Source: a virus. Taken from it: a stretch of DNA of 38,554 nt. Below are positions 2,681 to 36,022 of the stretch, one piece after another. The stretch's first letter is position 1; every line of letters starts with the position of its first letter. The stretch spans positions 1 to 38,554 of the IMG/VR virus record IMGVR_UViG_3300033150_000513. One strand, written 5' to 3'. A program made the translations under genes and the position numbers. Below the pieces are notes generated by a model. The model was not told where the DNA came from. It searched no databases and saw nothing but the letters and a program-made list of their open reading frames with translations.

Positions 2681-3214
2681 CTAGAAAAGCGTATGGTTGT
2701 GCTCTCGTCTCTTCTGGCTATAACTATTGCGAATCTTTTCTCTCGCCTCTTCTCGATACCGAATGTTCTCTTCTCGATCGTCCTCATTCTCCAATTTCGC
2801 CGCCTCTGAGAAAAAGTGATCCAGACCCCGCCCACGCCTTTTCCCTTCGGCTGTGTGCATGTCCAGCACGTAATCCGGCACGGGGCTTGGCGGTTCTGCT
2901 ACCGCTACCAGATCATCAATCACTCTCGTCTTTTTGCAGCGACTCAAAAGAACTGCTGCCTGGACTACGAAAAGATGTCGATCCGATCCTTTGCCAGCTC
3001 GTCTCCACATCTGATATAGAGCCCAAATCTGCGCCGGCAACCCCGGTTCCGCAGGCCCCACATCCTCGGACATGATAACGAATAACCGGCTCCACATCGC
3101 TTCGGCACGTCCGGTTTTGGCCAGCTCGAGTGCCCACCCGGCGGCATCCCTTTCGAGACCCCGCCGGATAGCCTTCTGCAGGCCACTCATTGCAACCCAT
3201 AAATCCTGCATCAC
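2681..3214 (-). CDS. Protein resembling the C-terminal domain of RarA/MgsA
   Basis: A 177-residue protein. MSEDVGPAEPGLP (about residues 48-60), the hydrophobic helix LFVVQAAVLLSRCKKT (81-96) and PDYVLDMHT...GRGLDHF (113-133) match the general pattern of the tetramerisation and C-terminal region of RarA/MgsA/WRNIP1 AAA+ proteins, which act at stalled replication forks. The ATPase domain is absent: there is no Walker motif. A stand-alone tail could bind the replication fork or poison the host RarA oligomer. Start is GTG at 3214 or ATG at 3211; both sit near a GGAG. The similarity is by eye, so the family call is moderate. Confidence 0.55.
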   Translation of the reverse strand: MMQDLWVAMSGLQKAIRRGLERDAAGWALELAKTGRAEAMWSRLFVIMSEDVGPAEPGLPAQIWALYQMWRRAGKGSDRHLFVVQAAVLLSRCKKTRVIDDLVAVAEPPSPVPDYVLDMHTAEGKRRGRGLDHFFSEAAKLENEDDREENIRYREEAREKIRNSYSQKRREHNHTLF

Positions 3215-3474
3215 TCAGTCTCTCCACTTCCTATGGCCTTTAGCGTGTCCGCCATAGAGTGCATGCAGGCACTACCATCAACCGTGCCTTCGATGTTTGG
3301 AAGCCAATACGATTCTGCACGCTTTGCTTCGATCTCATCTAGAAGATCAATCTCGATCGCCTTGTTCAGAATCTCTCGTGCTTCCGCAACCGCATCCTGA
3401 ATGATGTTCATCTGGTCTTTGAACTGCCGTGAATAATACGCTCGCAGTTCGTTCAGTTCTGACGTTGTTCGCAT
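3211..3474 (-). CDS. Small helical early protein
   Basis: An 87-residue, largely helical protein. The start at 3474 is chosen over upstream codons because it follows AGGAGGACAGGCG at correct spacing; this leader recurs before two other genes. It overlaps the next gene by four bases. No family recognised. Confidence 0.65.
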   Translation of the reverse strand: MRTTSELNELRAYYSRQFKDQMNIIQDAVAEAREILNKAIEIDLLDEIEAKRAESYWLPNIEGTVDGSACMHSMADTLKAIGSGETE

Positions 3475-3864: not shown

Positions 3865-4194
3865 GGAAAAAAGACACTGAATCTGCATGAATCAGCCCTA
3901 TTTTTTGCTGTTTTTTTGGTCTATTTTGGCGGGGATTGTCGTAAGTGCCGTCAGAATGGGCATTTTCGTCATTTCAGTTTTTTTGATTTCGTGTCATTCG
4001 TGATCGCCGATTTTGCCGATTTTGCCCCTGAATCCGGCCTTGTTGGTTCCGGAGTTCCTGTTATCTGTAAACTAACTGTGCATAACTGCCGCTGGAATAA
4101 GGAAAAACGATGTCTGCGAAAAGTTTATCATCTGGTATCCTTTATGATCCTACTATCCTGACGCCGGTCGTTGCCATGTCCTAGACCTACGATG

Positions 4195-4521: not shown

Positions 4522-4908
4522 TTACGGCCCCCACCTCCACGGAAGCCCCTCGTCTAGGCGACCGTGGCAACCGATGTGGATGCAATCTCTGTCCTCATAG
4601 GTGCCGATCCGCTTAATCAATCCTGAGAGCTCCTCTGCCGCCTCGATCACAACCTCTCGTGGGACACCCTTGACTATGATGTCCGCCGCCCAGCCGTATA
4701 GGTGATCGCTGTCGATCGCCCCTCCGACCATCTTGTTGTGGTTCGCACACCGATAGCCGGATGTTACGATGATCGGCTTGCACCCGATCATGCCCCGCAA
4801 CGCCTCGAGTGCCCGCACTAGCTTATCCTCAATCTTGACCCGATAGCAGCACGGGCACTGAAACTCCCGGAGGTTGAAGTGATCACTTACCTGAAAGTCG
4901 TTGATCAT
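4522..4908 (-). CDS. Endolysin, peptidase M15 (D-Ala-D-Ala carboxypeptidase type)
   Basis: A 128-residue single-domain protein. SGYRCANHNKMVGG (50-63) followed by SDHLYGWAADI (67-77) and IHIGCHG (110-116) give the zinc ligands His69, Asp76 and His111 of the M15 family. These enzymes cut peptide bonds in the peptidoglycan stem and commonly serve as phage endolysins. There is no signal peptide, so export would rely on a holin, and both neighbours are small membrane proteins. A CPCC near residues 18-21 is an extra cysteine cluster. Its start overlaps the upstream gene. Confidence 0.9.
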   Translation of the reverse strand: MINDFQVSDHFNLREFQCPCCYRVKIEDKLVRALEALRGMIGCKPIIVTSGYRCANHNKMVGGAIDSDHLYGWAADIIVKGVPREVVIEAAEELSGLIKRIGTYEDRDCIHIGCHGRLDEGLPWRWGP

Positions 4909-5165
4909 TTGTTCCTCGGCAGCCTTCTAGGCTTAACCAACTTTACGGCCTTCTTGCCCACTGCCACCCCGCCGATCGAGGTGAAGATGTCGCCCAGCAC
5001 CGGCACATACTTCACCAGCCCTGAGATGGCGCCGGTGATACCAGTCCCGATCAGCTTGCCCCACGAGAACTTCTCGCCCTCCTTGCGCTTCGCCAGGTAT
5101 CCCCCTACGGAGTAAAGGCACCCGCTTGCTGCGCCTATCACTAACAGTAACTCAAGTCCGCTCAT
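4905..5165 (-). CDS. Membrane protein, likely holin
   Basis: An 86-residue protein with an N-terminal hydrophobic helix (LELLLVIGAASGCLYSVGGY, about 4-23), a basic loop, a second hydrophobic region (about 41-70) and a basic tail KPRRLPRNK. It has a GGAGG site and lies directly upstream of the endolysin with a four-base overlap. Size, two hydrophobic segments and position fit a holin, which would let the endolysin reach the cell wall. No specific holin family is recognised. Confidence 0.6.
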   Translation of the reverse strand: MSGLELLLVIGAASGCLYSVGGYLAKRKEGEKFSWGKLIGTGITGAISGLVKYVPVLGDIFTSIGGVAVGKKAVKLVKPRRLPRNK

Positions 5166-5191
5166 AACACTCCCTCCTATAATGCGTTATC

Positions 5192-5521
5192 CTAATCGAT
5201 CACCGCTGGCACAATCGTCAGCTCGATGTCGTCTGACTTATCTATCGAATCACCTTGCACTGCCCGTATCTCGCCAACATACCGCTCTCCGCCTGTCAGC
5301 GGACTGACGTCGATCGGGCACGTAACGACTCCCTTATCTGCCTCGCTATGGTCAAAATCACCATCCTCAACCTTTATCAGACAGTCAGCATCGCTTTTCT
5401 TGAGCTTCACGCAAAAGGTGAATGTTGCACCCGTCATGTCTAGCGCTTCACCGGTCTGCTTATCCTTATACGTGAAGCTAATGGTCTTCTTTTCTCCCTC
5501 CTTGAGCACTATCTCGTTCAT
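5192..5521 (-). CDS. Beta-sandwich accessory protein, BppU N-terminal-like
   Basis: A 109-residue protein predicted to be all beta. The layout (an early TISFTYKD strand, LDMTGATFTF, then GERYVGEIRAV and a final ELTIVPAV strand) resembles the N-terminal domain of lactococcal-type BppU proteins and similar baseplate or fibre-attached modules. The gene at 9586..9957 has the same plan. It overlaps the fibre gene by four bases, so a fibre-linked structural role is likely. The family match is by eye. Confidence 0.55.
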   Translation of the reverse strand: MNEIVLKEGEKKTISFTYKDKQTGEALDMTGATFTFCVKLKKSDADCLIKVEDGDFDHSEADKGVVTCPIDVSPLTGGERYVGEIRAVQGDSIDKSDDIELTIVPAVID

Positions 5522-13213: not shown

Positions 13214-15402
13214 AGGTTCAGCCCCCGACCTAACTCGGCGTCAACATAGTCGCTAAGGTCTTTCAATAGTGCTCGTGTGTCATAGCTCCCTCGTAGCTCG
13301 GTGTTCACGACTAGCTGATCAACCCGTATCGACTGACCGCCGCCACCGACGCCGGCCATTGCTGGCTCCAATGCCCCGATGCCCGTCAAGCCACGGATAA
13401 GGTCCGCAATCGTTTTCGCTGGTGTAACGACCTCCCGCGGATGCAAGAATACCGCTCCCGCCTCCTTCGTGATAGCACCAGACTGCGCACTAACTAGACC
13501 AGCGCCAAACGATGATGCACCGGCCCCCGCACCCGCACCCGCACCGGCTCCGGCGCTAGCTCCCGCACCTCCGCCTATCGCACCAAACAATCCAAGCAGC
13601 GCTCTCAGAATCATTGCCTTCATGATCGCCTCTATTAACCACGCTATCAGAGACCGAAAGAACTTGCCCCACGCCTGCTTCGCAGTCAGCGCCCCCGTCA
13701 TTAGCCCCGAAATCCAACTCGCAGTTTGCGCTGCAAGCCTTTGCAATCCCGAACCAATCGTCTCAGCGAACGACTCCCAAAGCTCCCGGCCATCGTCTAT
13801 TTGGTCAGCGATCACACCCATAAACGTTGATCTTCTGTCCACTTGGGGAGCCTCTGGTTCAAACCGCGAACCCCAGTCCTCTTCTGGGATGTTCTCCGGC
13901 ATCCCCGGCGGCTTTCGGCCAACCTCAGGCTTGTGCTCCTTCATCCAATCTGGAGTCTCAAACATATTCTTGAGCCGCTCATACTCCATGATCAGCTTCG
14001 TCACATCGTCAGCCATGTCCTTCCAGACCTTGTGCCAACGTGAACCGAGGCTTTCGACCGGCTTCTGAAGATAGTAAATGTTGCGCTCTATCTGCTTGAC
14101 CTGGCGTTTCGCTTCTTTCTCGATGGCCTCTAGCTCTTTCCAAATCAGTGGGCCAATAATCGTCTTGAAAGGCTTCAGTAGCATTGTGAAGAGATGGACC
14201 ATCTTTTGATATATTTGCGCCAGCAGGGAATCGACTGCTTGTCTGATCCGGGCGATCATCATATTCTTCAATTCAATTGCCCAATCGTAAGCCCATTTGG
14301 CCGTAGCCACTATCAACCGGCCTAGACCTTTGATGTCCACCCACAATAGCTTCACGCCCAAGCGGAACTTATCAGAGTATTTGTAGGCCGCCGCAAACGC
14401 CGCCGATAATGCGATTGCGATCGCCATTAGCGGATGGGCCGCGATTAACGATCCCAGCTTCGACAGAGCTCCAGTTCCGACCAGGCTAAAGGCAGTGATA
14501 GCAGTTGTTACGGCGCTTATTTTCCCTGGCAAACCGCTAAGGCTATTGTTCCATTTGATCGTCGCCATTATATTCTTATTCAGCCAATCAACGATACTTT
14601 GTAGCGATGGCAATAGCTCGTTAGCAACCGCTATACTAACCCCCCTTAAGCCGTATTTCAGGGTTGTCATTGCATCATCGAACTTCTTAGCTGCCCTCGC
14701 ATTCTTATCGCTAAGCGTTATACCGAGAGCGTCCGCCTCTTGATAGAGTGCGGTGATCTGCTCTTTACCAAGCTGCAAGAAGGGTATCAGCTCGCCCCCC
14801 GCACGACCGAATAGCGTCAAAGCCATTGCCGCCCGAGCTGTGCTATCCTTGGTTTTGCGCATCCACTCCGCTATCTCTGCGAACACCACCTCCGCCGAAC
14901 GTAAACGCCCCGTCATGTGATCGATCGGATCGATGCCCATCTCCTTGAACGCCTTCGCATACTCCGAGCTCGGCGAGATGATGCAGTATTGCATCGTGCG
15001 AGATAGCTTGACGAGCGACTTCTGAAGGATGTCGATACTGGCATGCTCTTGCTCAGCAGCGTACGCCATGCGAGACAGGGCTTGAGCCGACATCCCGGTC
15101 TGCTTCATCATCTTGTCGATCTGCACACCGTAGCTGATCGACCCCTTGACCATCATGCCCAAGACGCCGATTATCGCCAGACCCGCAATCTTAAACGCCC
15201 GTGCGTGCGTCCGGATCGTCTTGTTCAGCTTCGTGAAGCTCTTGCCGATCCTCGCAAAGGCCGACCTGACCCTACTCGCCGTCTTGTTCGCCCGATCGCC
15301 GATCTTCTTCAGCGAATCTACCGTCTTTTGCGTCGCAACCTGAAGCTGCTTGACGTCCCCTACGAACTTGATAACGAGCTCTTCAAGCGTTATGCCGGCC
15401 AT
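13210..15402 (-). CDS. Tape measure protein (730 aa)
   Basis: The largest tail gene. The N-terminal 70 residues are coiled-coil (DSLKKIGDRANKTASRV). A hydrophobic segment follows (IAGLAIIGVLGMMV, about 72-85), then typical tape-measure text (AFKEMGIDPIDHMTGRLRS). Membrane-like helices lie at about 295-335 and 580-605. Near 605-630 is an (Ala-Gly)n tract, visible in DNA as a run of GCN/GGN codons (13530-13580). The tape measure sets tail length; 730 residues suggest roughly a 100 nm tail by the usual 1.5 Å per residue rule. It overlaps Dit by four bases. Confidence 0.9.
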   Translation of the reverse strand: MAGITLEELVIKFVGDVKQLQVATQKTVDSLKKIGDRANKTASRVRSAFARIGKSFTKLNKTIRTHARAFKIAGLAIIGVLGMMVKGSISYGVQIDKMMKQTGMSAQALSRMAYAAEQEHASIDILQKSLVKLSRTMQYCIISPSSEYAKAFKEMGIDPIDHMTGRLRSAEVVFAEIAEWMRKTKDSTARAAMALTLFGRAGGELIPFLQLGKEQITALYQEADALGITLSDKNARAAKKFDDAMTTLKYGLRGVSIAVANELLPSLQSIVDWLNKNIMATIKWNNSLSGLPGKISAVTTAITAFSLVGTGALSKLGSLIAAHPLMAIAIALSAAFAAAYKYSDKFRLGVKLLWVDIKGLGRLIVATAKWAYDWAIELKNMMIARIRQAVDSLLAQIYQKMVHLFTMLLKPFKTIIGPLIWKELEAIEKEAKRQVKQIERNIYYLQKPVESLGSRWHKVWKDMADDVTKLIMEYERLKNMFETPDWMKEHKPEVGRKPPGMPENIPEEDWGSRFEPEAPQVDRRSTFMGVIADQIDDGRELWESFAETIGSGLQRLAAQTASWISGLMTGALTAKQAWGKFFRSLIAWLIEAIMKAMILRALLGLFGAIGGGAGASAGAGAGAGAGAGASSFGAGLVSAQSGAITKEAGAVFLHPREVVTPAKTIADLIRGLTGIGALEPAMAGVGGGGQSIRVDQLVVNTELRGSYDTRALLKDLSDYVDAELGRGLNL

Positions 15403-28746: not shown

Positions 28747-28776
28747 ACCATAGAGGCCGCGTAGAGGGTATGTCAA
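28747..28776 (-). promoter_or_regulatory. Promoter of the packaging and structural operon
   Basis: TTGACA (28776..28771), an 18-base spacer and TATGGT (28752..28747), about 50 bases before the small terminase. The same boxes and spacing occur at 32333..32362. With 5-bp tract A just upstream, it leads the whole late operon. Confidence 0.65.
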
Positions 28777-28845: not shown

Positions 28846-28935
28846 AATCCTTGACTTGTCATGTCGCGCCTGGCCGCACCTGGCCACGCCCGGCCACGCC
28901 AAGCCCAGCCTAGTCCGGCCCAGCCTCGTCTTGCC
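28846..28935 (-). repeat. 5-bp periodic tract A (18 units)
   Basis: Eighteen five-base units in exact phase. In transcript sense the unit is GGCNN with GAC/GTC variants; the first units are GGCAA GACGA GGCTG. It ends in CAAGGATT. It lies between the zinc-finger gene and the late promoter. No coding frame is likely, since a 5-base period does not fit codons. Confidence 0.85.
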
Positions 28936-28952
28936 GCGATGTCGTTACAGTA

Positions 28953-29228
28953 TCACAGAAAGATTGTCAAAGTCAACACTGACCGTTTGCCCTCGATAAG
29001 GCTTTCGGGTCTGAAGACCGACTCGTCCTCAACACCCTTTTTCCTCATGATCTTCTCTCTGCACTCGGTCGAGCAACATCGTATCTGATGCCGTTCGTCA
29101 AACCACGCAGTTTGGGCATGGCATCCCTCGCAGTAGTAAGGGATTGGACTACGGAACATGCGAGGCTCGACGCCTTCCGGCGTGCTCTCGCCGATCCGAG
29201 TGTTAGGGTATAGGTCGTCGAACTTCAT
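28953..29228 (-). CDS. Small zinc-finger-like protein (91 aa)
   Basis: A 91-residue protein starting at 29228 in an ATGA overlap with the RuvC-like gene. YYCEGC (Cys33, Cys36) and CCSTEC (Cys51, Cys52, Cys56) form a probable zinc site, similar to HNH- or treble-clef-type knuckles, but no HNH catalytic residues follow. It may bind nucleic acid or assist the nuclease it is coupled to. Family unknown. Confidence 0.65.
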   Translation of the reverse strand: MKFDDLYPNTRIGESTPEGVEPRMFRSPIPYYCEGCHAQTAWFDERHQIRCCSTECREKIMRKKGVEDESVFRPESLIEGKRSVLTLTIFL

Positions 29229-29749
29229 TGAGCGACTTGCCTGCCTTGCGCTTTTCGTCTGCCCCACTCTGCTATCAGAATGGCGTCAAACTCGCCGTCC
29301 TTCGTCTTTCTGAACGAGTGGTAGGGGAATAATCGCCTCGCCGCCTCAAAGGCTTGGAGCTTGCTCTTGCCCTTCTGTGGCGTAAAGAACTCAGCCTGCC
29401 ACTTTCGGGCGGTTACGATCTGGTGTGGGATTTCGAGAGCCTGGAGCAGCATGAGCCATAGACCATACCCGAAGCCGGTTGTGAAGATGGTGTTGCCACC
29501 TTGTAGGACGCCAAGTATCTTCTTGGTTTTCGGGTCTCGCCTTACTGCGGGCATAGGCTGTTGCCGTTCGATGGCTACCAGGTCCATCTTTTTGAGTTCG
29601 TGGCCTATGTCTGCCATAGCCGCGAGGTCGTAAGCCTGGTGCCCCTTTTCGCCTGCGATCAGCGGGGTTGGCATGACCTTGAGTATCGCTCCTGTGTCCC
29701 TGAGGATTGCGATCGCTCCGTGTTTTCCTGGATCAATCCCTCCGTACAT
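29225..29749 (-). CDS. RuvC-like Holliday junction nuclease
   Basis: A 174-residue protein. GGIDPGKHGAIAIL (Asp6), LVAIERQQ (Glu61) and KDGEFDAILIAEW (Asp151/Asp155) are the acidic motifs of the RuvC/RNase H-like resolvase fold. The start at 29749 has AGAGGAGG seven bases before it. It would resolve branched DNA before packaging. It follows the helicase gene and is coupled to a small membrane protein gene by TAATG. Confidence 0.8.
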   Translation of the reverse strand: MYGGIDPGKHGAIAILRDTGAILKVMPTPLIAGEKGHQAYDLAAMADIGHELKKMDLVAIERQQPMPAVRRDPKTKKILGVLQGGNTIFTTGFGYGLWLMLLQALEIPHQIVTARKWQAEFFTPQKGKSKLQAFEAARRLFPYHSFRKTKDGEFDAILIAEWGRRKAQGRQVAQ

Positions 29750-29871
29750 TATCGTGCCTCCTCTATAATTGCGCAAATCACTGCGCATCCAATGAAACTA
29801 AATGCCGCTATAAATACAAGACCTAGTATCACCCCAATGACCCATTTGAAGCCTTTTTCAACAGTTTTCAT
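29749..29871 (-). CDS. Very small membrane protein (40 aa)
   Basis: A 40-residue frame: a short basic start (MKTVEKGFKW) and a membrane helix (VIGVILGLVFIAAFSFIG). GGAGG lies seven bases before the ATG; the stop overlaps the next start (TAATG). The hydrophobic helix and coupling on both sides make it credible. Function unknown. Confidence 0.6.
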   Translation of the reverse strand: MKTVEKGFKWVIGVILGLVFIAAFSFIGCAVICAIIEEAR

Positions 29872-29873
29872 GG

Positions 29874-31241
29874 TCAGTCCTCCGTCTCGTTAGTTACCCA
29901 ATCTGGTAAACGTTCTTGCTCTCCTTCGGCTGCATTTTTGAATGATGTGAATGCTCGTTGGAACATCAGCATAAAGGTCCCGGTTGGTCCGTTACGTTGT
30001 TTGGCCAGAATACATTGTATCGGAATGTTTGGTTTCTCACTTTTGCTTTTGCTATGCATTTCTGGGTTGTGAAGAAATAGCACTAGGTCTGCATCCTGCT
30101 CTAGGGACCCAGTTTCCCGTAAGTCTGATAGTCGCGGTCGGCGATTCTGTTGCTCACTAGCCCTCGTTAGCTGGGAAAACGCCACCAGTGTCACATTCAG
30201 TTCGCGTGCGATAGCTTTCAACGATCGGGAGATAGCTGTCATCTCTTGCTGTCTGTTTTCACTTTTTTTGGGATATTCCATCAGTTGGATGTAGTCAACC
30301 ATAATCAACTGAATCTTGAATTGCGCACAGGCGAGTCGAGCCTTAGCCAGCAGTTCGATAGGCCGGAGTCTTGGCGACTCGTCAATGTAGATCGGCATTT
30401 GAGCGAGCTGTTCCTGCGCTTCATGGATAGCGTATCGAGTTTGTGGACTGATCTGGCCAGCTCGCAAGCTCTTCAATGAGATGGGGGTCTGAGCTGCGAC
30501 TAACCTGTTGCCGAGTTCTGTCTTAGACATTTCGATTGAGAATATCAAGACGCCAGTATTTTGTTGCGCAACATTTCGCGCAATGTCAAGCATTAGTGAA
30601 GTCTTACCGACGCTAGGTCTGGCACCCACGATTATTAGTTCGCCTGGATGCAAACCTTGTGTGCGCTTGTCGAGCTCGATAAATCCCGTAGGAATACCAG
30701 GCGTCTTCTTTATCCCAGCAGCGATGGCTTCTGCTGACTCGACCGCTTCTAATGTAACGTCAGAGATGGGGCTTAGTTTGCGTTGCACACGTTCAATTGC
30801 TACATCAGCCGCTGCACGCTGCAAAATCTCCGATGCTTTTTCGCCAGAAATAGGATCGCCGGAGACTTTGTCGTAAACCATTCCCGAGGCGTCCATCACT
30901 TGTCGAACACGGTATCTGTCCTCAACTAGCTGAGCATAGTACCGAATGTTGGTAACAGCGGACACATCCATGGCCAGCTCGGATAGATAGACTTTGCCGT
31001 CCGTCCCACCTAGCCAGCCACGCTTCTCCAGCTCCGCTCGCACCAGAATGTAGTCAATTGGAATGCCTTGCTTGAACAGCGACAGCATCACGGTGTAAAT
31101 ACGCTCATGTTTTGGTAGATAGAAAAATCTGGGCTCAAGCGTCTCGACTACCTCAGAAATCCGATCCCCATAGAGTAGAATGCCGCCTAATACGGCACGC
31201 TCTGCCTCAAGATCGTGAGGAGCTATCTTGGCTTCTGGCAT
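29874..31241 (-). CDS. dnaB: Replicative DNA helicase, DnaB type
   Basis: A 455-residue protein. The start at 31241 follows GGAGAA by seven bases. PHDLEAERAVLGG (about 8-20) begins the N-terminal DnaB domain; Walker A is GARPSVGKTS (about 206-215); the Walker B region is IMVDYIQLM (about 297); LSDLRETGSLEQDADLVLFL (about 365-385) holds the arginine-finger region of the RecA fold. It unwinds DNA at the fork. It follows the initiator gene with only one base between. Confidence 0.93.
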   Translation of the reverse strand: MPEAKIAPHDLEAERAVLGGILLYGDRISEVVETLEPRFFYLPKHERIYTVMLSLFKQGIPIDYILVRAELEKRGWLGGTDGKVYLSELAMDVSAVTNIRYYAQLVEDRYRVRQVMDASGMVYDKVSGDPISGEKASEILQRAAADVAIERVQRKLSPISDVTLEAVESAEAIAAGIKKTPGIPTGFIELDKRTQGLHPGELIIVGARPSVGKTSLMLDIARNVAQQNTGVLIFSIEMSKTELGNRLVAAQTPISLKSLRAGQISPQTRYAIHEAQEQLAQMPIYIDESPRLRPIELLAKARLACAQFKIQLIMVDYIQLMEYPKKSENRQQEMTAISRSLKAIARELNVTLVAFSQLTRASEQQNRRPRLSDLRETGSLEQDADLVLFLHNPEMHSKSKSEKPNIPIQCILAKQRNGPTGTFMLMFQRAFTSFKNAAEGEQERLPDWVTNETED

Positions 31242-31242
31242 G

Positions 31243-32211
31243 TCATTCTTCTCCATATATGTCATGCAGCTTATCACGAGAGTTGTTCTGTAAACAGCTC
31301 TTAAGGAAGTTGTTGGTTTCAAATCGAGTATTGGAAACCCTCGTGGCTCGTGCCATCGTTTCAATGAGTGTCTGGTGATCGACTACCGGTACCTCCTGCC
31401 ACTTATATTTGCCGATCGACTTCCCGTCAGCCAATAGTAGCAGCTCATTGAGTATCGACAGTAGATACGTAGTATCCCTGAGAGTGCCATGCTCAAGGAA
31501 TGGGCCTCGGTTATGTGGCGTGAGGCAGTGGGCAATATACTCGATGACTACCCGACGTTCTTTTCTCTTGAACTTCTTAATCAGGTTCATTGCCAAGCAC
31601 TTTGCCTCCGAACCATCGTGTGTACGTACGCCTGGACTAGGTTCTTGAGTAAGAGGAAGTATATCAGGTCCGGATGGTTCCGACAATCTGCGTTTAGCAG
31701 ATTCGGTCGGGACAATAGATACAGATACATCCGAAGGTACAGCTACATCTACATATACATATACAGGGGGGAGCACGCTCCCCTTTTTGGGGAGCACGCT
31801 CCACAATTTGGGGAGAGCATTCTCTAATTCGGGGAATGCCTTCTGCGTCTCTGCTGGCAGCTCATCCCATTTGGGGAGCGGGCACTGTAAATCCCACTTT
31901 CGTTTCTTTGGGGTGATCTGATACTTAAGATGCTTAGGGAGCAGCAATATCTCCCCATCCTTGGAGGGATAGCGGTAGGCAAGTCTGAGCTTCGTCGTAA
32001 TCATGTCGAGCGCCTTATTGACTTTCGCCTCGGTCGATCCGATGTGATGTGCGAGCTCAAATGCATCAATCTTCATGAGTCCCAAGTCATCACTCTTCAA
32101 GATACACTCCAGAAAGATGATGCGCTGCTCAAAGCTAAGACGTAACACCCGTCCGTCTTCATTGAAGTTGTTCGGGATGATCGTGAACGAACGCTTGATG
32201 TATTTAGACAT
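31243..32211 (-). CDS. Replication initiator with N-terminal winged helix
   Basis: A 322-residue protein. The N-terminus (about 1-110) is a winged-helix-like domain: IDAFELAHHIGSTEAKVNKA, then YPSKDGEILLLPKHLKYQ. A low-complexity linker follows (about 120-165), ENALPKLWSVLPKKGSVLPP and VYVYVDVAV, encoded by tandem DNA repeats. The C-terminal third is helical and basic. The order initiator then DnaB resembles lambda O/P and DnaD-type systems, where the first protein binds the origin and loads the helicase. The origin itself may lie in the linker DNA. AGAGG precedes the ATG. The family is uncertain. Confidence 0.7.
   Translation of the reverse strand: MSKYIKRSFTIIPNNFNEDGRVLRLSFEQRIIFLECILKSDDLGLMKIDAFELAHHIGSTEAKVNKALDMITTKLRLAYRYPSKDGEILLLPKHLKYQITPKKRKWDLQCPLPKWDELPAETQKAFPELENALPKLWSVLPKKGSVLPPVYVYVDVAVPSDVSVSIVPTESAKRRLSEPSGPDILPLTQEPSPGVRTHDGSEAKCLAMNLIKKFKRKERRVVIEYIAHCLTPHNRGPFLEHGTLRDTTYLLSILNELLLLADGKSIGKYKWQEVPVVDHQTLIETMARATRVSNTRFETNNFLKSCLQNNSRDKLHDIYGEE
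31718..31842. repeat. Iterons and hexamer run inside the initiator gene (candidate origin)
   Basis: GGGGA recurs at exactly 21-base intervals at 31768, 31789, 31810 and 31831. The first three units each hold an inner inverted repeat; the first is GGGGAGC-AC-GCTCCCC. Directly beside them (31718..31765) are eight hexamers of form NNTACA, one degenerate, giving an A+T-richer flank. Iterons next to a melting region inside the initiator gene are what lambdoid origins look like. Confidence 0.6.
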
Positions 32212-32323
32212 CGGTTTCCTCTGGAGATAAACCAGGGCCTCGGGTCGCTATGAGCCAGTCCACCTGAACGGAAGGATACCCTCGGCCCTGATAATACCAG
32301 TATAAACCTGTGAACTTACTCAT
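32204..32323 (-). CDS. Possible leader peptide (39 aa)
   Basis: A frame of 39 codons starting MSKFTGLYWYYQ and ending in a stop that overlaps the initiator's start. It lies directly after the promoter, so its mRNA leader would be almost nothing, and the only ribosome site is a weak GGTGG. It could be a leader peptide or chance. Confidence 0.35.
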   Translation of the reverse strand: MSKFTGLYWYYQGRGYPSVQVDWLIATRGPGLSPEETDV

Positions 32324-32328
32324 AGCGA
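32245..32328. promoter_or_regulatory. 10-bp inverted repeat beside the replication promoter
   Basis: TCGCTATGAG (32245..32254) and CTCATAGCGA (32319..32328) are exact inverted copies 64 bases apart. The right arm starts five bases past the -10 box. A second pair, AGGGCC (32234..32239) and GGCCCT (32284..32289), lies within the same leader. This may be an operator pair for a looping repressor or an RNA structure. Confidence 0.5.
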
Positions 32329-32332
32329 GTCC

Positions 32333-32362
32333 ACCATATCACACGTCTTTTGCCGTTGTCAA
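32333..32362 (-). promoter_or_regulatory. Promoter of the replication operon
   Basis: TTGACA (32362..32357), an 18-base spacer and TATGGT (32338..32333). It has the same boxes and spacer length as the late promoter. It reads into the initiator, helicase and nuclease genes. 5-bp tract B ends 18 bases upstream. Confidence 0.65.
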
Positions 32363-32379
32363 GTCCTTTTGACGAATAG

Positions 32380-32454
32380 TTTCCTTGCCTTGACTTGCCA
32401 GGCCCCGCCCTGCCCCGCCCTGTCCTGCCGAGCCGGGTCCAGCCCCGCCCCACC
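32380..32454 (-). repeat. 5-bp periodic tract B (15 units)
   Basis: Fifteen units in exact phase, transcript sense GGTGG GGCGG GGCTG and so on, ending GGCAAGGAAA. It faces the inverted tract B' across a 31-base gap. Confidence 0.85.
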
Positions 32455-32485
32455 TCGGTGCAATAATCCGTCCTCTATTCGATTG

Positions 32486-32630
32486 GGCAAGGTCTGGGGA
32501 GGTCTGGCTTGTCGCAACGGCATGGTTAGGTTTGCCTCGGCTTGCGCTGTCGCTTCGGCTAGGTCTGCTCTGGGTTGTAATGTCATTTGGCCTGGCTTGG
32601 GTCGGAATTGACAGGACTGGAATGTCGCTC
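32486..32630 (+). repeat. 5-bp periodic tract B', opposite orientation
   Basis: A more degenerate tract whose GG lies on the plus strand: GGCAA GGTCT GGGGA GGTCT GGCTT, with three-base and two-base phase breaks later. It touches the end of the gene at 32629. In the minus transcript it reads as C-rich units that can pair with the G-rich tract B, giving a long imperfect hairpin. Confidence 0.65.
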
Positions 32631-33291
32631 AGTCTAGCTTCGTCAACTCAACCACCTTGAACCGTCCATAACCCTGACTGCGTGAAGCGCCTAGACCACC
32701 ATCTTGCGCCAACGATAATGTTCTTGCAAGCGCTTTTTTCGTGAACTTCGTCTGTCCCTTCAGTATGCAGACCCTGAACTTCAATAACGGTCGCTCGACA
32801 TAGTCGTTGCGCTTCAGGATGTTGCGAGGCCCTTGGGGACCGGTGATGTGTCCGCACGTGTCGATGCTGCTCAATGGGGTATTCGGGTCGGTGCCCAAGT
32901 AGATGCGGTCTTGATCCCATGGTCGTTCAGGGTTCTCATCTTCATCTGGGAACACAAATAGGGCGTGCTGGAGTATCTGTTTACTGCCACGCTCCGTCCG
33001 GGTGATGCCAAGCACTTTTGCATTCTCCTTGATCATGGCCTTGATCTGCCTGGTCTCGATGTAGTGCCCACGCTGCTCGTCAACCTTGAAGCCTGACCAT
33101 GCCCAGTCCTCTGCTTCTGTTAGGTCCACCTCGCTGACCGTCTCGTCTGTCCTGTCGGTTATGCCTCTGGCCTCCAGCCAGTTCTTGATCAGCTTCTCAT
33201 TGCGGGGGACGCCGCCAAGCAGCTTGTCCTCAAACTTGATCGCCACTCGATAGATGTCATACAGCTCCTTCCGATCTGCTAACTCTCTCAT
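32629..33291 (-). CDS. RAMP-like protein with C-terminal glycine loop (220 aa)
   Basis: A 220-residue protein with an AGGAGG site. The C-terminus LSLAQDGGLGASRSQGYGRF (192-211) is a glycine-rich loop followed by a final strand KVVELTKL. This matches the GxGxxRxxGxG(R/K)F loop of RAMP proteins (Cas5, Cas6, Cas7, Csm3/4 and similar), which bind RNA. The N-terminal segment LYDIYRVAIKFEDKLLGG begins with a strand as RAMP folds do. No Cas gene or CRISPR array is in the genome. The preceding gene ends in a similar loop. RAMP membership is inferred by eye from this loop. Confidence 0.55.
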   Translation of the reverse strand: MRELADRKELYDIYRVAIKFEDKLLGGVPRNEKLIKNWLEARGITDRTDETVSEVDLTEAEDWAWSGFKVDEQRGHYIETRQIKAMIKENAKVLGITRTERGSKQILQHALFVFPDEDENPERPWDQDRIYLGTDPNTPLSSIDTCGHITGPQGPRNILKRNDYVERPLLKFRVCILKGQTKFTKKALARTLSLAQDGGLGASRSQGYGRFKVVELTKLD

Positions 33292-33323
33292 ACTACCTCC
33301 TACTTCTGTGTTGGTGAATTATG

Positions 33324-33418
33324 AATCCTTGCCTTGCCTTGCCCAGCCAGGTCAAGCCTTGCCCGGCCTTGCCACGCTGAGCCGCATCCCGCCCTGCCAC
33401 GCCTCGCCCGGCCTTGCC
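33324..33418 (-). repeat. 5-bp periodic tract C (19 units)
   Basis: Nineteen units without phase breaks, transcript sense GGCAA GGCCG GGCGA GGCGT, ending GGCAAGGATT. It lies 33 bases before the start of the RAMP-like gene at 33291, so it is in that gene's 5' leader. Confidence 0.9.
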
Positions 33419-33435
33419 ACATGTGAGTAGTAGTG

Positions 33436-33510
33436 CGTCCTTACCTTGTCTTGCCAGGCCCCGCCCGGCCTCGCCAAGCCTCGCCCTGCGCGGCCTTGCC
33501 CGGCCAGGCC
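33436..33510 (-). repeat. 5-bp periodic tract D (15 units)
   Basis: Fifteen units, transcript sense beginning GGCCT GGCCG GGCAA and ending GGTAAGGACG. A 17-base non-periodic spacer separates it from tract C in the same orientation. It follows the stop of the gene at 33529. Confidence 0.88.
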
Positions 33511-33528
33511 ACGTTGGATTGAACTAAA

Positions 33529-34104
33529 CTACATTTCTTTCACTTTATTCTCCCACTTGAACTTAACCGGCCTATACCGACCATACAGCCCGCTTTGACG
33601 TGGGCGCCAGCGACCGATCCCAATGAACTGCCCGGCCTCTCTGAGATGGTGCTCAAATACCTCCGGCGTGATCGTATCATCCAGAATGTTATACGTTACT
33701 TTGCCGCTCCATTCCGGGATCACTGGGAAGCACTTTTTCACACGCTTGGTGCCGCCCCTCTTGCCGTCCGCAGGAACCAGAAGCCACTCGCCCTTGACCG
33801 TCTCTCTCGTCTCAGGCAGCGTCAGGCCTTCCATCACCATCACTCCAGCTTCAAAATGCTTGGTGTAGGTGTTCTTACCCCTGCCCGGTATCTTAATACC
33901 GAGAAACTTGGCCACCTCCTCGAGGGACTTCTTGAACTGCATGGGCGGGATGAAGATGTGTCCTGTCTCATCGTAGTGCGCCCGCTCCCGCCAGGTGCGT
34001 CTCTCGTATGCGTCTGAAGTCTCCTTGTTCAATTTCGGGGTATCATGGAACCTCGACTGCGAATACGGTGATATGCTTACCAACTCCACAACAACTGATC
34101 TCAT
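33529..34104 (-). CDS. RAMP-like conserved phage protein (191 aa)
   Basis: A 191-residue protein with GGAGG five bases before the ATG. N-terminal SISPYSQSRFHDTPKL (about 10-25), then IFIPPMQFKKSLEEVAKFLG, and at the C-terminus FIGIGRWRPRQSGLYGRYRP (160-179) before a last strand. The loop shares G-x-G-x-x-R...G-x-Y-G-R with the next gene's, so the two look like paralogous folds. I associate the N-terminal pattern with a conserved phage family of unknown function. An RNA-binding role would follow if the RAMP reading is right. Confidence 0.55.
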   Translation of the reverse strand: MRSVVVELVSISPYSQSRFHDTPKLNKETSDAYERRTWRERAHYDETGHIFIPPMQFKKSLEEVAKFLGIKIPGRGKNTYTKHFEAGVMVMEGLTLPETRETVKGEWLLVPADGKRGGTKRVKKCFPVIPEWSGKVTYNILDDTITPEVFEHHLREAGQFIGIGRWRPRQSGLYGRYRPVKFKWENKVKEM

Positions 34105-34147
34105 TTCGTCCTCCGTCTGTTTTTTGCCTAATCCTAACTCAAATCAA

Positions 34148-34237
34148 AGTCCTTGTCTTGACTTGCCATGCCTCGCCCCGCCTTGCCGGGCCTCGCCATG
34201 CGCGGCCTTGCCGAGCCCGGCCAAGCCGCGCCGCGAC
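34148..34237 (-). repeat. 5-bp periodic tract F (18 units)
   Basis: Eighteen units, transcript sense GTCGC GGCGC GGCTT GGCCG, ending GACAAGGACT. It starts directly after the gene at 34241 and ends 44 bases before the start at 34104. Confidence 0.88.
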
Positions 34238-34240
34238 GAT

Positions 34241-34744
34241 TTACATCCTCTCTAACGCTTCCAACACATGCCCGTAGGGCAGAACTTTCTGTGCCTGCAC
34301 AACCCTCCCTTCAATCTGTTTAAGCGCTTTCGGTCTGGCCATCGCTTCCTGCACCATAAGCAGGCTCTGCGTGCCCAGCCATTTGATGCGTTGGGCCTCT
34401 GTGAGTTCCTCATCGTCAACGCAAGTGCTTTTGCGTAGCCCACGCCTGGCTGTGCGACCGATATGCTTCACATCACTTTGCAACGACTCGACTGTCTCGG
34501 CGCTATTCGCGCGACGCAGACCTACGCTCCGTATCGTTACGAAGTGTATGCGATCCTCTCGCATGAGATACCGCCGTGCCGAAGTCAGTGCGCCACGCCG
34601 CTTGCGAACGTCGCTGCCGATCGCCTCCGATAGCTCCTCATACATGATTGGTTCGCCTGGGCTGACCTTTCGCAGCTTCTCGATCAGCTTCAGCGTGTCA
34701 ACCGTTCTGCGGAACATCGGTTGCCGTTCTAGGTTTTTGGTCAT
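34241..34744 (-). CDS. Winged-helix-like regulator candidate
   Basis: A 167-residue protein. EPIMYEELSEAIGSDVRKRR followed by GALTSARRYLMREDRIHFVT (about 30-70) looks like a winged helix-turn-helix. The rest is helical and basic (HIGRTARRGLRKST). It sits alone between tracts E and F. It could regulate early transcription. AAAGGAGG precedes the ATG. The family is not recognised. Confidence 0.6.
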   Translation of the reverse strand: MTKNLERQPMFRRTVDTLKLIEKLRKVSPGEPIMYEELSEAIGSDVRKRRGALTSARRYLMREDRIHFVTIRSVGLRRANSAETVESLQSDVKHIGRTARRGLRKSTCVDDEELTEAQRIKWLGTQSLLMVQEAMARPKALKQIEGRVVQAQKVLPYGHVLEALERM

Positions 34745-34778
34745 TCTATCCTCCTTTCTGTCTTAGTATTACAATGAA

Positions 34779-34878
34779 TGTCCTTGCCTTACCGCGCCAG
34801 GTCTTGTCTTGCCGAGCCGTGTCCAGCCTGGCCGTGTCCTGCTTCACCCGGCCACGCCCGGTCCGGTCCCGCCTCGCC
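34779..34878 (-). repeat. 5-bp periodic tract E (20 units)
   Basis: Twenty units, transcript sense GGCGA GGCGG GACCG GACCG GGCGT, ending GGCAAGGACA. It lies between the small membrane protein gene and the start of the gene at 34744 (35 bases away). Confidence 0.85.
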
Positions 34879-34896
34879 GCAGCCAATCTCTATTCC

Positions 34897-35076
34897 TCAT
34901 TGTCTTTGTGCCAACCATAACAGCACGTTCAGTATCAGCCCGCACGCCAGGCCCCAAGCGAGGCCCTTACTGAATGCCTTCTCCTCGAGGTCTTTAACGT
35001 AAAGGGCGATCCAGTTGGGATCACGCTGGCTCAGAAGCCACGTTAGAATCTCAATCGTGGTCGCATATTTCGTCAT
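34897..35076 (-). CDS. Small membrane protein (59 aa)
   Basis: A 59-residue frame in an ATGA-like overlap with the previous stop. It begins MTKYATTIEIL and has a C-terminal membrane helix (GLAWGLACGLILNVLLWLA). Its overlap and hydrophobic end make it a likely gene. Function unknown. Confidence 0.6.
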   Translation of the reverse strand: MTKYATTIEILTWLLSQRDPNWIALYVKDLEEKAFSKGLAWGLACGLILNVLLWLAQRQ

Positions 35077-35468
35077 TTGTTCTTACCTTTCCATCTAGGA
35101 TCGCCCTTGAGAAACTTGATTACGGCTTCCGCCAGCTCATTCTTTCGGGGTTTACACTCTACGCTATACGGCTCGTAGCACACCATGAGGCTTGAGAGGC
35201 CGCATTGGCAGTTCTCTTGGCCTGGTGACTTACCGTATAAGCCGATATAATTGTTGGCTTCGAGATACTGCTTGACGATTTCCTCGACGATCAGGGGTTT
35301 GCCCTCTGGCTGCGACGTGTTGCTTCTGTAAGGTCTGCAAATATTGACAAGGGCTTCGCAGTGCGTCATAAGATCGCCGAGGTGGCAGGTGCAGTCCCCG
35401 AAGTAAGACCGCAGCCCAACATACCCATGCTGCTCAAGATATTTCTTGACGATGCTTCTAACGTTCAT
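35073..35468 (-). CDS. Protein with two CxC zinc-type repeats
   Basis: A 131-residue protein; the start at 35468 follows AAGGAGG and overlaps the upstream stop (ATGA). It holds two copies of one domain: residues 2-47 (Cys26, Cys28, Cys37, Cys44) and 59-107 (Cys87, Cys89, Cys97, Cys105). Each is IV..YL...GY.GL...C.C.L..L followed by two more cysteines and a Pro. The spacing suggests a small zinc-binding module. A third copy ends the neighbouring upstream protein. Confidence 0.7.
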   Translation of the reverse strand: MNVRSIVKKYLEQHGYVGLRSYFGDCTCHLGDLMTHCEALVNICRPYRSNTSQPEGKPLIVEEIVKQYLEANNYIGLYGKSPGQENCQCGLSSLMVCYEPYSVECKPRKNELAEAVIKFLKGDPRWKGKNK

Positions 35469-36022
35469 GATTCCTCCTTCGGCTTTTGTGCCCCATACAT
35501 ATACTCGCAGCTGTCGCCGAACTTCTGCTTCCATCTATAATCAGCGGGAACCAAGTACCCCGGCCGACAATTGCCCGGATTCTTACATGACTTCTTTACG
35601 AATAGTGATCCCAGACTGCAGCCACACGGCTCCAAAGGATTGTAAAGCCCCTCATAGCCATGCTCGTCAAGCCACTGTGTTACGATGGCACGAACATCCA
35701 TATGTTTCTGTTTTGATGGCGTGTCCAGTCCCATCATTTGCTTGAAGACTAGCACGAAGGCGGACACCGCAGAATCGAACTGCCTCAGCCAGGCCTCATC
35801 CTTGTCGGGGAATAACTTGCGTAGTTCTGCTAACGTCATAACTTCTCCTTTCTGCTTCTGTGAGCTATGTTGTTCTCGTAACACCTTCAGCTGCCGTATG
35901 ATAGCGCCAATCATCCGATCAGCCTGCCAAAACCACTCCTCATGCTTACAGGGCAAATCCTCACGCAGCTCCCTCATGTCGATCATCACTTCTTGCCTAT
36001 TTTTCCTGCCTCTAAATCCCAT
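35465..36022 (-). CDS. Modular protein: duplicated helix module + CxC domain
   Basis: A 185-residue protein. Residues 13-49 and 62-97 are two related helical segments (ELREDLPCKHEEW and ELRKLFPDKDEAW). Residues 108-156 hold the CxC domain (Cys133, Cys135, Cys146, Cys152) found twice in the next gene. In front of Met62 the DNA has AAAGGAG five bases before ATG, so an internal start at 35839 is likely, or this is the scar of a gene fusion. Function unknown. Confidence 0.65.
   Translation of the reverse strand: MGFRGRKNRQEVMIDMRELREDLPCKHEEWFWQADRMIGAIIRQLKVLREQHSSQKQKGEVMTLAELRKLFPDKDEAWLRQFDSAVSAFVLVFKQMMGLDTPSKQKHMDVRAIVTQWLDEHGYEGLYNPLEPCGCSLGSLFVKKSCKNPGNCRPGYLVPADYRWKQKFGDSCEYMYGAQKPKEES

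Follow-up and report, generated by a model that had tools for sequence, protein, structure and literature searches.

Six GGYNN tracts in a virus record are very probably guide RNAs of a VIPR system and lie beside a second, divergent RAMP gene

Introduction

VIPR systems are CRISPR-like, phage-encoded systems first described in a 2026 preprint (PMC13142463), and we describe here a 38,554-nt stretch of viral DNA (IMG/VR record IMGVR_UViG_3300033150_000513, positions 1 to 38,554; hereafter the window) in which six tracts of five-base GGYNN units very probably encode the guide RNAs of such a system. The VIPR guide RNA (vrRNA) consists of alternating GGY triplets and variable NN pairs, with 9–16 units and hypervariable NN, and binds to Vipr, a RAMP protein of ~20 kDa that has a glycine-rich loop and whose gene is accompanied by an accessory vap gene (PMC13142463). 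The code is noncontiguous, such that the NN pairs recognize double-stranded DNA with one base skipped between pairs; the complex represses transcription, and the majority of the natural targets mapped are satellites or prophages (PMC13142463). Type II combines Vipr with the DNA-binding protein Vap1 and is represented by the Escherichia phage SUSP1 clade, for which a structured 3′ tail of the vrRNA has been demonstrated, and array architecture differs among the types (PMC13142463). The preprint refers to seven types, among which it mentions 'staggered arrays' as well as 'a related consensus', and the guide code is thought to be older than CRISPR (PMC13142463).

The GGYNN tracts

The six tracts contain 15–20 GGYNN units in transcript sense, and all are on the minus strand. 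Tract A (34779–34878) has 20 units, tract B (34148–34237) has 18 and begins immediately 3′ of the vap1 stop codon, and tracts C (33436–33510), D (33324–33418) and E (32380–32454) have 15, 19 and 15, respectively. Tract F (28846–28935; 18 units) is located outside the main cluster, with an HNH-like open reading frame (ORF) on one side and a small gene upstream of the terminase on the other. All six are intergenic, as a preliminary description of the window had stated, and have the same sense as the minus-strand genes. The variable pairs of tract A, read 5′ to 3′, are GA GG CG CG GT CG GA AG AC CA TG AC TC AA AA CT GC AA AA CA. The preliminary description listed seven tracts, six of which are exactly where it placed them; the seventh (32486–32630), which it regarded as a looser inverted copy, is real but is an array of another kind on the plus strand, with its period of five broken by the 8-nt sequence GTCGNNNN, and it apparently belongs to a second system with a divergent RAMP.

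A period-5 weight matrix scores the six tracts at 43.7–52.5 bits per 50 nt, compared with a maximum of 6.7 bits among 100 shuffled windows. No further full tract was found when the matrix was applied to the whole window, and self-identity at a lag of five bases is conspicuous at the tracts only, in agreement with the confinement to one region noted earlier. The 105 units have G at position 1 in 96%, have G, A and T at position 2 in 81%, 15% and 4%, respectively, and have C at position 3 in 89%. If the terminal GGA unit of each tract is excluded, a pyrimidine occupies position 3 in 99/99 units, whereas the NN pairs of the interior are near random, with an entropy of 3.70 of a possible 4 bits. 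The tracts thus do have three conserved bases followed by two free ones, and the observation that this is no standard phage element also stands. The form matches that of the VIPR guide RNAs.

Vipr and Vap1 genes

Between tracts B and C is a minus-strand gene (33529–34104) coding for a 191-residue RAMP protein (PHROG 4652), related to the 196-residue Vipr of SUSP1 (phmmer, E=4e-5) and to ORFs adjacent to arrays in other phages (E down to 3e-75). An AlphaFold2 model of this protein (predicted local distance difference test score, pLDDT, of 88) has a Cas7-like predicted fold; when it was compared with the PDB using Foldseek, 50/50 of the top matches listed were CRISPR RAMPs, the first of them type VII CRISPR chains (E=4e-8). 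Near-invariant residues include W132 and a glycine-rich loop with G158, G162, R167 and G175. Phage DSL-LC04 (L182, OR003939) has a likely Vipr homologue at 2815–3432 that is annotated as a helix-turn-helix transcriptional regulator.

The adjacent vap1-like gene (34241–34744, minus strand) encodes a 167-residue protein predicted to be a DNA-binding accessory. An iterated hidden Markov model search seeded with it recovers the 146-residue neighbor of Vipr in SUSP1 (E=6e-28) together with about 20 array loci. In the SUSP1 genome (KT454805) genes for 196 and 146 residues are located between GGYNN tracts, and from the published description (PMC13142463) and homology we take these to be vipr and vap1. 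No close relatives of the Vipr of the window were found in GTDB genomes, so no host is proposed, and a megablast search of INPHARED identified no near relatives of the phage.

The association between tracts and Vipr extends well beyond this locus. A collection of at least 120 array stretches was assembled from viral contigs with the DNA pattern (GGCNN)6GGC, using no protein information, and 17 loci fetched by DnaB similarity served as controls. Among the matches listed, a single-sequence search with SUSP1 Vipr finds a homologue in 74/120 array stretches and in 0/17 control loci; an iterated Vipr profile raises the former to 82/120, with 0/17 controls, although the single-sequence count is to be preferred, the profile having been built from the same array loci. 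Some of the array stretches lacking a Vipr homologue are plain simple repeats. The pattern scan by itself thus recovers VIPR loci in bulk.

The identity of the GGY/NN motif with that of published vrRNAs, the Vipr and Vap1 homologues lying among the tracts, and the association across phages together make it very probable that the six tracts are the vrRNAs of a VIPR system. GGY/NN repeats, an adjacent small RAMP with a glycine-rich loop, and a vap gene are all present; a structured 3′ tail is not. The kind of system has been known since 2026, and what is new is the tail-less form and the pairing with a second module.

Tract ends, guide targets, and proposed mechanism

The one-base skip described for VIPR holds in independently fetched data, although from the same phage, SUSP1, that the authors of the preprint used. 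Four SUSP1 guides were scored at skips of 0 to 3 bases against E. coli chromosomal satellites that share a baseplate gene with SUSP1; a query with SUSP1 capsid genes had found no satellites, and a tail-gene query succeeded. At a skip of one base three of the guides match one such satellite (L206) at 27/30, 20/22 and 20/22 positions, compared with shuffled maxima of 22, 18 and 18, whereas scores at skips of 0, 2 and 3 are within or at the shuffled range. A comparison of 373 guides, all against all, with 3 Mb of DNA on both strands did not single out any skip length, an outcome to be expected with this small amount of target DNA.

In the phage described here the tracts would be transcribed in the minus sense as the guide RNAs of a SUSP1-like VIPR system (type II, with Vipr and Vap1). 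A row of Vipr subunits would bind each tract and hold the GGY triplets, leaving the NN pairs to read double-stranded DNA with one base skipped per pair, and the complex would silence the matching gene, most likely one of a competing phage or satellite. We infer expression, binding, silencing and the nature of the target from the family, and consider guide-directed silencing of a competitor to be the likely mechanism in this phage. When the six guides were compared with their own genome nothing was found much beyond shuffled guides, which fits outward targeting; tract E reaches 17/22 at a skip of one base against a maximum of 16 over 40 shuffles, and we do not take this match as real.

The 3′ ends of the tracts are constant, with two or three GRCAA units followed by GGA, and AA occupies 16/18 of the last three units before GGA. 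These last repeats probably serve as a built-in 3′ handle, one formed from the repeat unit. Tract F is preceded by a promoter-like site on the minus strand (28949–28976; TTGACT-16-GATACT with TG before the −10), a consensus match that ends 14 nt before the tract, and the other tracts may be cut from operon mRNA. Of the promoter-like sites in this region, the best two (32333–32362 and 28747–28776, minus strand; both TTGACA-18-TATGGT) closely follow tracts E and F and precede a DnaD-like gene and the small gene upstream of the terminase. No Rfam family, hammerheads included, was found at its gathering score, and a permissive scan gave a single chance match (E=0.04; 20 bits, the cut-off being 70).

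Two results weigh against assigning the tracts to VIPR. First, no stable or shared fold follows any of the six (z-scores −0.8 to 0.6), whereas strong hairpins (z −2.7 to −7.4) are present 3′ of the tracts in the closer relatives L012 and L089; the gap of 17 nt between tracts C and D leaves little room for a tail. As the structured tail was demonstrated for the SUSP1 clade, and array architecture varies by type (PMC13142463), the tail-less ends weaken the placement in type II of that clade rather than the assignment to VIPR. Second, no targets of the guides were found using 8-unit exact seeds of tracts A, B, D and F in IMG/VR and of tract A in GTDB, the 45 matches extending no further than chance, although such seeds can miss real targets because the best SUSP1 match itself has 3 mismatches in 30.

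A second RAMP gene and its array

The minus-strand gene at 32629–33291 encodes a second, divergent Vipr-like RAMP of 220 residues. Its Pfam matches, to RAMPs (E=0.024) and Cas6_C (E=0.04), are both below the cut-offs; a profile–profile comparison with the Vipr family using hhalign gives P=96% and E=2.9e-9, and a Vipr profile search finds the protein at E=2.5e-4, identifying it as a Vipr homologue. Cmr and Csm RAMPs lead its Foldseek matches (E=1e-6), using a model of modest confidence (pLDDT 66).

An array on the plus strand (32481–32640) is antisense to this gene and just downstream of it, and consists of (GNNNN)n broken by GTCGNNNN. Relatives of the 220-residue RAMP are encoded in viral contigs L147–L157 and in Microcystis phage Mae-JY09 (L181, PP395641; 32%, E 1e-21). 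The antisense array lies just downstream of the RAMP gene in the window, L147, L148, L152 and L181, and upstream of it in L153, L155 and L156. These arrays share a period of five with G first and the last bases free, are interrupted by GTCGNNNN, and do not have a fixed pyrimidine as third base; the parse used for unit composition rewards G at position 1, such that only positions 3–5 and the spacing are informative. Pooled over the window and seven further records, the spacing between consecutive GTCG anchors is 3 mod 5 in 42/70 cases compared with a shuffled mean of 18%; it is this pooled count that serves as evidence, since individual shuffles in which anchors were very scarce reached 100%. 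In Mae-JY09 about 500 unannotated bases (4724–5240) are a GTCG-punctuated, guide-like array that follows a 'hypothetical protein' gene coding for a Vipr-like RAMP.

The first Vipr is present in 0/11 of the other records bearing the second RAMP, and the second RAMP in 0/41 other records searched, most of which carry Vipr, although several of the records are fragments or near duplicates. Co-occurrence in this phage therefore looks unusual, and independence of the two modules likely. Tentatively, two separate VIPR-like systems could lie back to back, the second comprising the RAMP at 32629–33291 and its relatives and having a guide format not detailed in the main text of the preprint (PMC13142463): continuous five-base repeats on the opposite strand, in which GTCGNNNN every 8 + 5k bases ends one guide and starts the next. 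The RAMP and the GTCG-punctuated opposite-strand array are in any case probably an independent Vipr-like module within the same locus, and may be a little-described variant.

An alternative is that there is one system with two RAMP subunits, in which the 220-residue protein serves tracts A–F as a partner or a processing subunit. In favor of this, both RAMP genes are in one gene cluster among the tracts, and the protein has weak similarity to the Cas6 C-terminus. Nonetheless, we think this unlikely: the other records that bear a relative of the second RAMP lack the first Vipr and, where inspected, have a GTCG-punctuated array of their own, and the second RAMP is missing from the 41 other records searched, most of which carry Vipr.

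Alternative explanations of the tracts

Rather than serving as guides, the tracts could be cis-acting mRNA leader elements, the GGY repeats being coated by Vipr or another oligomeric RNA-binding protein that controls translation downstream. Tracts A, B and D end 33–44 nt ahead of start codons with Shine-Dalgarno-like sequences, in gene sense, and a triplet-plus-spacer form with a period of five resembles the sites of TRAP (trp RNA-binding attenuation protein), an oligomeric protein that binds 11 NAG repeats. Tracts E and F, in contrast, are separated from the next start codon by ~150–170 nt and have promoter-like sites downstream, and in the related system of SUSP1 guide information resides in the NN bases. 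TRAP-like regulation by TrpBP itself was rejected: neither this genome nor any of 29 further records with arrays contains its family (PF02081), and the triplet is GGY. We regard a leader function as improbable.

The preliminary description raised a structural role, with GG every five bases on one strand allowing intergenic two-quartet G-quadruplexes or R-loops. This we now consider very improbable. Position 2 drifts to A or T, and four GG pairs are kept in only 25/81 four-unit windows, whereas position 3, which is irrelevant to a quadruplex, is always a pyrimidine; nor would a quadruplex account for the AA units that are constant at the 3′ ends or for the linkage to a RAMP gene. That the tracts are functionless microsatellites decayed from GGCNN replication slippage is scarcely credible, for although some adjacent units repeat (e.g. 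the GGCAA runs at 3′ ends), GGY is held while interior NN is near random, which bears out the earlier proposal of selection on a 3-of-5 pattern, and at least 120 array stretches in unrelated phages, the majority located next to Vipr, have the same form.

Other features of the window

A small minus-strand open frame with a hydrophobic segment (34890–35073), possibly a one-helix membrane protein, lies between tract A and the upstream gene. The neighboring minus-strand genes at 35073–35534 and 35465–36022 include three copies of a cysteine motif (YLEQHGYVGL...CxC...LGDLM...C), an apparently internally duplicated small domain without a Pfam match. Tandem 21-bp repeats (GGGGAGCACGCTCC...) at 31768–31844 are within the DnaD-like gene and encode a short repeated linker. 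Short low-complexity repeats are present at 13517–13569 (GCACCC, within a large coding frame) and at 3927–4026, with a 9-bp period near 4006.

Comparison with known systems

The locus appears to be an independent addition to VIPR, with repeats that are very clean and tracts that lack a structured tail, and suggests that a single phage can carry two VIPR lineages. A representative of the second family occurs in an isolated Microcystis phage, which makes the guide format of that family directly testable.

TIGR-Tas systems likewise provide phage-borne RNA-guided DNA targeting from tandem arrays, but are set apart by their description, the effector beside the tracts here being a RAMP; to our knowledge the tracts do not have the TIGR format. 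TRAP sites share triplets split by two free bases and an oligomeric protein, with (G/U)AG in place of GGY, and the family is lacking here. The class 1 CRISPR RAMPs (Cas7/Csm3/Cmr) have the same predicted fold and glycine-rich loop, but the guide here is noncontiguous, no CRISPR repeat-spacer array was found, and the neighbors scanned are phage replication and packaging genes with no other cas gene among them.

Within VIPR, the second module may resemble the types for which 'staggered arrays' or 'a related consensus' are briefly mentioned (PMC13142463), in that it has a Vipr-like RAMP and an array that could be read as overlapping guides; its GTCG-punctuated blocks of 8 + 5k nt on the opposite strand may or may not correspond to those arrays. 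The first module shares with type II of the SUSP1 clade a RAMP-type Vipr, Vap1, and phage-borne intergenic GGY/NN tracts with hypervariable NN. It differs in having 15–20 units rather than the published 9–16, with nearly all Y being C, and a last-repeat handle (GRCAA-GRCAA-GGA) in place of a structured 3′ tail. Its six tracts extend over 6 kb, two being adjacent to replication and terminase genes, and a second RAMP is encoded in the same locus.

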